From Xiphophorus maculatus (Eukaryota; Chordata; Actinopteri; Cyprinodontiformes; Poeciliidae): 64,000 nucleotides of DNA. Where the stretch lies: the NCBI RefSeq assembly GCF_002775205.1, contig NC_036459.1, positions 6,393,466-6,457,465 of the forward strand, in the 5' to 3' direction. The stretch's first letter is position 1. Each line of letters starts with the position of its first letter. Positions 42,701-45,315 of the stretch are shown here, in pieces. Made by a program: the position numbers and the translations under genes. The notes below the pieces were generated by a model. The model ran no database searches. It had not been told where the DNA came from and saw only the letters and a program-made list of their open reading frames with translations.

Positions 42701-45315
42701 TTTTCATTTGAATGTTAAATGTAGACAAATCCAGGATGCTAAGTGGGAGTGTTTGAAGATAAAAAAAAATAAAAAAAAACACAAAGGTCACTTTGCTCAC
42801 TTTCTCTCATCCTACAATCAAAACAAATTAAATAAATCTAAAGAGCATTCTTAAAATCCAGTATCAAATTAAAACCAAATTACATTTCAAATCTATAAAT
42901 GGTCTGCATAGACACCCATTACTTGACTGTGACAAAGAATGGTATTTTGCATGCCAATCATGTTTCTGAAACAATACTGTCTGGCTGAATGTTTTTGTAC
43001 AACCATGAATTATGGTGGATGCTTAATTCATGTATTATCCTTTGATTTTTTTGTAAACCCATTGACCTTTTCCAATCATTCTCATGTAACAAACTTCAAA
43101 TTTACATTTATTTCATTGCAATTTCATGTTATAGACCAAGCAGTCTGTAAAGAGGAAGAAAAGTGAGCCTGTAATGGGTTCTCTTCTATCTCCACCTTGA
43201 GAGTTGTTGTCCTGATGGAAAGTGAACCTCTGCTCTACTTTTAAATACAACGCAAACTATCCAGTTTTCAGACAATACTGCACTATAATCTATCTTCATC
43301 TTTCTATCAAACATATATTACAATATTCTTGTTAAGCACTGTAATTTAATCCCCGTCATGGTGCCACTTTCGCTTTTTCACAGATTAATCTCTCCACATT
43401 AAAACAAGTAGTCTATCTTCTTGTTTCTGCCTGTTACACAAATAACACCTGGGCTTACCCATGTTAATCAGTCTGAAGTATTTAACATGCAGGTGCACAT
43501 ATCAGAAAGCATAGACGGACATCTGAAGTGTCATTTCTGCATGTGGCATTTATGGCACAATGATACAGGAAGTTTCACTAACAATGAGTTCCTGTGTGAT
43601 CTTGCTTGTTAGATTTTTTGCGAGTAAAAAAAAAAAAAAACTAATGATTTTACACATCACATTTTTTATTACTATTTTGTATCGAGAGAAAAAAAATGCT
43701 GAATTTCAACCAGTGCTACAATTATCCTTTTTAGAGAAAAAAACACAAAACAAAACAAAAAGAGAACGAAATCTTTAACTAAGTTACATGATGCCCATTC
43801 AGGCAGCTATAAGTAAAATGTTTTACAGAAACAGGAATCTGGTCTTATTGCTAAGCAGCAGCGAAGCAGAAACAGAACGAAGCCAGAGATTTTCAGCTAA
43901 TAATTAAAAGTGCTTTAGAGGACAGCTGTAAAGGGATCCAGAGCATGAGTAAGAGTTGAAAATTGATCAAATGGTTGGGGATTTATGTGAGTGGAAAGAA
44001 GCTGCACATGCATCTCAGGTCCAGAATTTTTTTGTTCCAAAACAAAAAGATGGATGGCTTTATGTTTAGCTATTTCTATACAGATGAAACCTGAGGTTTA
44101 CCTACACTGCAGAAAAGAAACATAACTTTTCTTTCTCTCTTGCTGTGATACTGAATCGTTCTCGTGATAAGCAGAACTATATCTAGTTGTTTAGTGCCAG
44201 GATAATAAAAACAATTTAAAAAAAAACATTTTTAAAAACACATTTTTTTAAGCGAAGTCTTTCCGAGGTTTTTAAGTCCATTTGAATTCAACTCTTATTT
44301 GTTTCTCTGTCGGAAAAGAAACTGATCCACTTGATTAACTAAATTAAAAACCTCAACTTTTTTTTCCTGGTAATTAAAAATAATTTTGGCAATCCTAACT
44401 GCCTAAACCTGTCTGATTTAACACTGGTGAACAAAAACAAAAAGAAAAAAAAAGATTATGCGTCTCTTAATACAGTGCATGTAAACTTATAGGTTTCAAC
44501 TATGAATTTCAGTTTCAACCCATGGCTACCTGATCCATAAAGCATGTGCCACCAACATGGTAAAAGAGAAGCAAGAAAGGGTGAGGCAACGGTGCTTAAT
44601 TAAAGGAGCACAACGTGTGCAAGAAACAGCATAAAGTGTTAGTCATGCATTCTGTGTTTACAAGAGAGGTCAAGCACTTTACTGATCTGTTTAGGTAAAT
44701 AACAATAACAAGCGTTATGCTGATGGGAGCAAATTTTTTGTTTCCCCCATAACCAAGATCAAGTTGAGCATTTAAGCAAGCTTCTGACACTTTATTGCAT
44801 AAAAAATCATCATAATTTTGGGATAAACGCAAATAGTTTTTCTTTAAAGAGCAATAATTTGCTTCCCCCTTTAAATTTAAAACAAAAAAAAAAAACATCC
44901 TCAATAGACAGAGGGTTTCTTTAATAGTTTGAAGATGATTGGTTTACTCACTTGTAAGTCAACCCATCTCCTTTAGAGCATAGCTCTTCAGCCGTATGGC
45001 CATCCGAGACAACACACTGTTGGTCAGATCTGCTGGTTCAAAATGCGTTGACCATTACAAAGCACTGATGTGCACACTTATCTTAACCTAACCTAATTGA
45101 GCGCTTAAAAAAAATATATCTTAAACCTTTTGATTCTGTTTCACGAATGTACAGAGATGTGTGGGGAAGAAAAGAAAGAAAAGAGAAACTTGCATTCTGT
45201 GATGCGTGGATACTTACTTGTATGTAAGGCCGTCGCCAACTGAAAAGAGCTGCTGTGCTGACAGTCCATCATCTGGGATGTAGCCCGTACCACCACTGAT
45301 TAAATAATCCGCCAT
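36773..45315 (-). CDS. impdh1: Inosine-5'-monophosphate dehydrogenase 1, 14 coding exons
   Basis: Coding exons (minus): 45315-45218, 41877-41829, 40486-40385, 40295-40221, 39801-39595, 39515-39428, 39356-39157, 38562-38472, 38324-38229, 38081-37938, 37829-37685, 37602-37459, 37374-37291, 36794-36773. All boundaries are GT-AG and in phase. The sum is 1545 nt, 514 residues plus stop, the standard IMPDH length. It oxidises IMP to XMP with NAD+, the rate-limiting step of guanine nucleotide synthesis, as a cytosolic tetramer/octamer. Exons 5-7 hold the regulatory Bateman (CBS) module. Exon 9 carries the catalytic-cysteine loop [12 protein letters not shown]. Exon 11 carries [18 protein letters not shown]. 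The C-terminus is YEKRLY. It is IMPDH1-like rather than IMPDH2-like by its end and by its prrt4/hilpda neighbours; a teleost a or b paralogue cannot be assigned here. Confidence 0.96.
37291..37374 (-). CDS. impdh1: impdh1 penultimate coding exon
   Basis: Encodes [18 protein letters not shown] and EGGVHGLH, ending with TC of a split Ser codon at the donor TC|GTAAGT. The next exon (36794-36773) supplies T TAT GAG AAG CGA CTT TAC TAA. In mammals alternative splicing between these two exons produces retinal C-terminal variants (known for IMPDH1); no equivalent mini-exon was identified here. Confidence 0.9.
38229..38324 (-). CDS. impdh1: impdh1 exon with catalytic cysteine
   Basis: Encodes [19 protein letters not shown] and then [12 protein letters not shown]. 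The Cys in GSICITQ is the nucleophile that forms the covalent E-XMP intermediate in the IMPDH family. Intron phases are 1 on both sides. Confidence 0.93.
38640..39065 (+). mobile_element. Pogo/Tigger-like transposon remnant in impdh1 intron 7
   Basis: It starts with ACTGTATTTTCCTCACTATA and a GGCGCACCT block, the terminus of a familiar fish pogo-like family. An internal frame reads [19 protein letters not shown] and then [17 protein letters not shown], the N-terminal helix-turn-helix of pogo/CENPB-type transposases. The frame breaks right after, and no matching right terminus was found, so it is truncated. Confidence 0.65.
39157..39801 (-). CDS. impdh1: impdh1 exons 5-7, Bateman regulatory module
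   Basis: Three exons (39801-39595, 39515-39428, 39356-39157) encode [11 protein letters not shown], then [20 protein letters not shown], then the [18 protein letters not shown] segment. These two CBS motifs bind adenine and guanine nucleotides and control octamer assembly and GTP feedback in IMPDH enzymes (family knowledge). Confidence 0.93.
42940..43260. repeat. Degenerate copy of the abundant teleost repeat in impdh1 intron 1
   Basis: Contains GAGTTGTTGTCCTGATGGAA followed by AGTGAACCTCTGCTC and, upstream, TATAGACCAAGCAGTCTG. These are the same blocks as in the copies at 47.6 and 58.8 kb. Confidence 0.45.
44952..45032 (-). CDS. impdh1: Candidate alternative impdh1 exon duplicating the end of exon 1
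   Basis: The minus strand reads [18 protein letters not shown] plus AA, followed by donor AA|GTGAGTAAA at 44952/44951. Exon 1 ends [18 protein letters not shown] plus AA|GTAAGT. The two share the same phase and most residues while differing at many silent positions. Acceptor AGs upstream give 81 or 78 nt, both multiples of three. The piece could therefore be included after exon 1 without shifting frame, adding 27 or 26 residues. It could alternatively be a mutually exclusive exon or a dead duplicate. Confidence 0.5.
45218..45315 (-). CDS. impdh1: impdh1 canonical first coding exon
   Basis: Encodes [18 protein letters not shown] through DGLTY plus AA of a split Asn codon. Immediately before the ATG is an acceptor-like CTTTTGGCAG|C. 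The leader is therefore supplied by an upstream exon, either an untranslated housekeeping exon or the longer alternative exon at 49830. Confidence 0.93.

Follow-up and report, generated by a model that had tools for sequence, protein, structure and literature searches.

The impdh1 locus of Xiphophorus maculatus, whose product is an enzyme of GTP synthesis, raises the question of whether a stretch of its first intron that resembles the end of exon 1 can itself serve as an exon, and what kind of enzyme would then be made. We examined the 64,000-nucleotide stretch of DNA that carries this gene (the window) together with the paralogous IMPDH genes of the same genome. On the basis of sequence comparisons, we tentatively favour the view that the intronic element, exon 1', arose from exon 1 by an old tandem duplication and could be spliced in frame, and that it would be used mutually exclusively with exon 1 in transcripts that begin at an upstream exon, exon A. 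Old age and selection are likely; splicing, the tissue in which it would occur and a loss of polymerisation are what we infer.

An impdh1 gene and its paralogues

The window contains an impdh1-type gene on its minus strand, with 14 predicted exons and a standard product of 514 residues. The parts relevant here are as follows (a slash marks a splice junction).

49823..50040, minus strand: exon A, the predicted first coding exon of retinal type; length 218 nt counted from the ATG, with the phase-2 donor GAAAA/GTGAGT
45218..45316, minus strand: exon 1; 99 nt if internal, phase 2-2, acceptor ...TTTTGGCAG/C ATG, 32 residues encoded
45030..45034, minus strand: weak NAGNAG tandem acceptor of exon 1', judged by weight-matrix scores
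44952..45029, minus strand: exon 1', which diverged from exon 1 after duplication; length 78 nt, phase 2-2, or 81 nt with the upstream AG at 45034-45033
44954..45004, minus strand: 17-codon homology block of exon 1', defined by its BLOSUM62 score against the exon 1 peptide
44946..44951, minus strand: donor of exon 1', CAA/GTGAGT, judged by its weight-matrix score
41829..41877, minus strand: exon 2, 17 residues, from gene prediction
36776..40486, minus strand: exons 3-14 of the impdh1 gene, from gene prediction

The full protein is more similar to human IMPDH1 (1042.8 bits, best chain) than to human IMPDH2 (1005.9 bits, best chain), and this preference, together with a retinal-type exon A upstream, places the gene among vertebrate IMPDH1 genes. 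Two further IMPDH genes are found in the genome, which was searched as 704 Mb in 101 contigs. The first, at 12.31 Mb of contig C2, is a second impdh1 gene that likewise carries an exon A; the other, at 9.05 Mb of contig C1, shows the reverse order of scores (IMPDH1 945.1 bits, IMPDH2 1049.4 bits) and is impdh2. The C2 gene (locus L032, about 1022-1168 and 7688-7926) has its exon A upstream and an intron 1 of 540 nt that holds no exon 1', and one residue is missing near its NSQKRYF stretch.

Other open reading frames (ORFs) in the window include two on the minus strand (2399-2854 and 4664-5287) that match DUF829 (PF05705) and that we take to be TMEM53-like. On the plus strand, a 699-codon ORF with membrane-type stretches (30649-32745), presumably prrt4-like, and a Ser/Thr-rich ORF of 495 codons (19744-21228) gave no hit in Pfam at E 0.01.

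A diverged duplicate of exon 1 sequence in intron 1

Exon 1' ends in AA/GTGAGT, in parallel with the AA/GTAAGT at the end of exon 1. Across the shared block of 17 codons, 11 residues match, and nine of these 11 matching codons differ silently. This agrees with the preliminary description, whose coordinates and letters for the minus-strand block hold (45218 is the last base of exon 1, and 41877 the first of exon 2). Its proposal of an exon of 78 or 81 nt, both multiples of three, with the phase of exon 1 is likewise borne out by in-frame translation: adding either length leaves the frame intact, and the open frame of exon 1' spans 26 codons.

Aligned with the exon 1 peptide, the block reaches a BLOSUM62 score of 56, compared with at most 32 by chance among 40 simulated sequences of 64 kb, and 23 of 25 bases are identical between exon 1' and, in the C2 paralogue, the last bases of exon 1 together with the donor (E 2.9e-6). 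We confirm that the 3' part of exon 1 has a diverged copy in intron 1 of impdh1. The copy is found once in the 704 Mb by DNA search and once by peptide search; in the first introns of the two paralogues, C2 gave no match and C1 gave noise alone (best E 0.75). A single scan of viral contigs with a degenerate exon 1' pattern matched 11 stretches. Elsewhere in the window, CGVTASNLHTVTEGITY (4277-4327, plus strand) scores 37 against the exon 1 peptide, which is above the simulated maximum. This match was rejected as an IMPDH exon, as it has no IMPDH context around it and lacks the AA/GT end, and it is probably due to chance.

Exons 1 and 1' are adjacent and homologous, as expected of a tandem-duplicated exon pair, and lie 188 nt apart. 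They share phase 2-2 and have lengths divisible by three (99 nt and 78/81 nt), and by these measures the two are interchangeable as internal exons. We discarded two other accounts. A recent segmental duplication was rejected, as blastn of exon 1 flanks against copy flanks gives short matches only, the best of which is T-rich (E 0.005); a 176-base exact match between overlapping query segments was set aside. Use of exon 1' alone as a first exon was also rejected, given that it has no in-frame ATG and that a TGA lies just upstream of its acceptor.

Age of the duplication and selection on the copy

The exon 1 sequences of the two impdh1 genes differ at 13 of the 51 block sites. At nine of these the copy agrees with C2, at two with its own exon 1 and at two with neither, and exon 1' is thus less like the exon 1 of its own gene than that of the paralogue. 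Under equal silent rates, copies simulated to arise within the younger half of the branch give such a bias in 0-1 of 4000 runs, and copies made at the split of the two impdh1 genes match it in only 16-21 of 4000 runs. Taken together, the site agreement and the simulations indicate that the duplication probably dates from about the time of this split or from before it, which supports the old duplication originally proposed. Given that even copies of split age rarely show the bias, the copy may branch with the paralogue's exon 1. The likelihoods for own-gene and paralogue-side branching (-192.4 and -192.0, 17 codons) do not separate the two. When the copy's rate is left free, the log likelihood is -192.6 at the base of the branch, -193.2 half-way and -195.2 at 5%, and ages are therefore poorly separated; a young, very fast-evolving copy is disfavoured, though mildly so under this free rate.

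The silent differences had also been read as the mark of protein-level selection. A naive pairwise test does reject neutrality of the copy (4e-5; third-position excess 8e-5), but part of the silent divergence sits on exon 1's own branch, and therefore the claim is less secure than it first appeared. We tested omega = 1 for the copy in a codon model whose branch lengths had been fixed on 500 of the 514 codons (14 near the C2 gap were dropped). Neutrality is rejected when the copy is attached to the own-gene branch (p 0.0013 for 17 codons and 0.0027 for 20 codons without a clock; 0.0005 and 0.005 with one), but not when it is attached to the paralogue's branch (0.07 and 0.13 without a clock; 0.06 and 0.33 with one). 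On the impdh2 branch, p is 0.03 and 0.06 without a clock and < 3e-5 with one. With branch lengths free (p 0.16-0.89), the test is powerless. Because the outcome depends on the branching and the free-length test is powerless, we consider protein-level selection on exon 1' to be likely, not proven.

Splice sites of exon 1'

Of the 40 introns predicted in the genome's three IMPDH genes, 38 (all but two near a C2 alignment artefact) were used to build the position weight matrices with which splice sites were scored. The donor of exon 1' is the top of 193 GT sites in intron 1, with exon 1's own donor counted, and falls at the 63rd percentile of the 38 references. The 78-nt acceptor scores 0.62 bits, at the 5th percentile of reference acceptors, and 44 of 198 AG sites in intron 1 (including this acceptor itself) score at least as high. 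The acceptor of the 81-nt form, at -5.68 bits, is lower than all 38 references. The acceptor of exon 1, immediately 5' of the ATG (TTTTGGCAG/CATG), is likewise weak (8th percentile), and the exon A donor lies at the median. As predicted by these matrices, exon 1' is fitted with a strong donor and a weak NAGNAG acceptor, both of which are in frame. Simple counts of splicing-factor motifs around exon 1', made without a control, reveal no clear cluster.

Exon A provides a start codon

When the upstream ORFs of the two impdh1 genes are compared, a sole strong match emerges (E 6e-17; next best 0.002). The matching ORF is exon A, with its ATG at 50040 and a donor after 49823, and its product reads MERFEYERSV...GHETAAQRYNAIRTQAGFSPE. 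The mammalian retina uses exon A as an alternative first exon. Alone, the fish sequence matches human IMPDH1(595) weakly (E 0.077), and a two-sequence profile of exon A matches residues 26-48 of this human variant at E 8.7e-6, just before the MADYL that begins at residue 50. The N-terminal part of exon A is common to the two fish impdh1 genes only (32 of 79 columns invariant). By these matches, the ORF at 50040-49823 is a retinal-type exon A that corresponds to the extension of human IMPDH1(595).

Exon A ends AA/GTGAGT in phase 2, and its junctions with exon 1 (AA/C ATG), with exon 1' (AA/A TCT) and with exon 2 are all in frame. The preliminary description was right that mutually exclusive use of exon 1' would need a different start. 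Since exon A has the same phase and joins in frame to exon 1', such use has a start codon available and is hence possible.

The duplicated exon encodes the filament arm

The structural study of human IMPDH2 (PMC7018514) places the filament interface in the N-terminal tail, residues 1-28. A bridge links Tyr12 to Arg356 of the adjacent octamer, further hydrophobic contacts come from residues 1-7, and in non-filament structures Asp16, with Val13 and Pro14, fixes the tail on a neighbouring subunit (PMC7018514). Exon 1 encodes residues 1-32, and therefore the entire filament arm is encoded there.

The copy alters this arm at several positions. Tyr12, which a filament arm should carry, is Cys at the aligned position in exon 1', a pairing that rests on ungapped extension past the well-conserved block; the register is supported by codons 12-13, which are TGT GTT in the copy and TAT GTT in the paralogue. 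In addition, Ile13 is Val and Pro14 is Val, Asp16 and Gly17 are retained, and residues 1-7 (MADYLIS) are without counterpart in a product that joins exon A to exon 1'. An engineered Y12C change in human IMPDH1 and IMPDH2 disrupts polymerisation, and the authors argue that there is no direct catalytic harm; polymerisation is also described there as lowering GTP sensitivity (PMC12265856). From these two effects we predict that the A-1' enzyme would be octameric and more GTP-sensitive, that is, a splice-encoded, non-polymerising IMPDH1.

A proposed exchange of exon 1 for exon 1'

We propose that, when transcription starts at exon A, A-1'-2 could be made in place of A-1-2, with exon A supplying the start codon and the shared donor phase preserving the frame. 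The resulting protein would retain the barrel-side part of the arm and Asp16, lose MADYLIS, and carry Cys for Tyr12. Such an IMPDH1 might be active yet fail to polymerise, or it might cap filaments in mixed octamers, and in either case it would be expected to be more sensitive to inhibition by GTP. A further step, which we regard as somewhat doubtful, would be that this constitutes a natural polymerisation switch operated by splicing: by moving from exon 1 to exon 1', which drops the Tyr12 contact and keeps the Asp16 contact of free octamers, photoreceptors or other cells of this fish could tune filaments and GTP feedback.

The start codon, the likely age, the Tyr12-to-Cys change and the link between exon 1 and the filament arm extend the earlier observation. 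The data favour an origin of the copy no later than the divergence of the two fish impdh1 genes; were that so, many teleosts could have the switch. The role of IMPDH filaments in living tissue is usually approached with engineered Tyr12 mutants. A fish isoform that naturally lacks Tyr12, if real, would provide a ready-made comparison for filament function. It could also reveal whether photoreceptors control filament assembly through splicing, in a gene that leads to blindness when mutated in humans.

Alternative explanations

A serious alternative, and one that we consider quite possible, is that exon 1' is a decaying relic. The old duplicate would then have had a use in the past but now be dying or unspliced, its open frame and donor persisting for a while. 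The weak acceptor is consistent with this, as is the fact that the copy has changed L18, Q21, Q22 and F24, four of the 13 positions in the block at which the three IMPDH genes are invariant. Neutrality also survives under paralogue-side branching and with free branch lengths. Nevertheless, we would expect an unconstrained copy roughly as old as the two impdh1 genes to be largely erased, whereas exon 1' has the best donor in the intron and a frame open for 26 codons, and neutrality is rejected on the own-gene branch.

It is also conceivable, though rather unlikely, that exon 1' is a cassette added after exon 1 (1-1'-2 or A-1-1'-2), which would insert 26-27 residues before the barrel and push the filament arm of exon 1 outward as an extension. 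The combinations that we translated stay in frame, exon A would be unnecessary, and the 188-nt gap is no evident bar to splicing. Given that exon 1 can be joined to exon 1' in frame across a gap that is not evidently too short, nothing observed here forces mutual exclusion. However, two arms would then stand in tandem, and when exons of equal phase are duplicated, exchange is more typical than addition.

A chance likeness of intron sequence to exon 1, which only the shortness of the block (51 nt) might suggest, is very unlikely in view of its score, the phase and AA/GT end that it has in common with exon 1, and its match to the paralogue at the exon 1 end and donor.

Comparison with known systems

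Among the titles and abstracts listed in our search of the open-access literature, none describes such an exon; the main zebrafish IMPDH1 study (Cleghorn et al. 2022) is outside that scope. A retinal zebrafish transcript of impdh1a, tvX1, is cited from that study in PMC12486205, and it resembles the present case in showing diversity of fish IMPDH1 isoforms in photoreceptors; the gene described here is classed as impdh1 only.

The exchange of exon 1 for exon 1' that we favour has three other points of comparison. The human IMPDH1(595) variant has an N-terminal extension to which exon A of the fish gene is homologous, but there the extension is joined to ordinary exon 1 sequence, whereas in the fish gene the arm itself could be exchanged. 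Engineered Y12A and Y12C mutants of IMPDH, as presented in PMC7018514 and PMC12265856, resemble exon 1', which likewise carries Cys at the Tyr12 position; exon 1' differs from them in being natural and in having further changes, including the loss of residues 1-7. Finally, mutually exclusive tandem-duplicated exons, as in PMC9741552, resemble exons 1 and 1' in being adjacent, homologous and of equal phases within one gene, and probably in being old. The fish pair, whose mutually exclusive use is a prediction, differs from these in encoding a polymerisation interface and in its place, where the standard coding sequence begins. Tandem-duplicated alternative exons are a familiar kind, but a pair that exchanges the polymerisation arm of an enzyme would be new.
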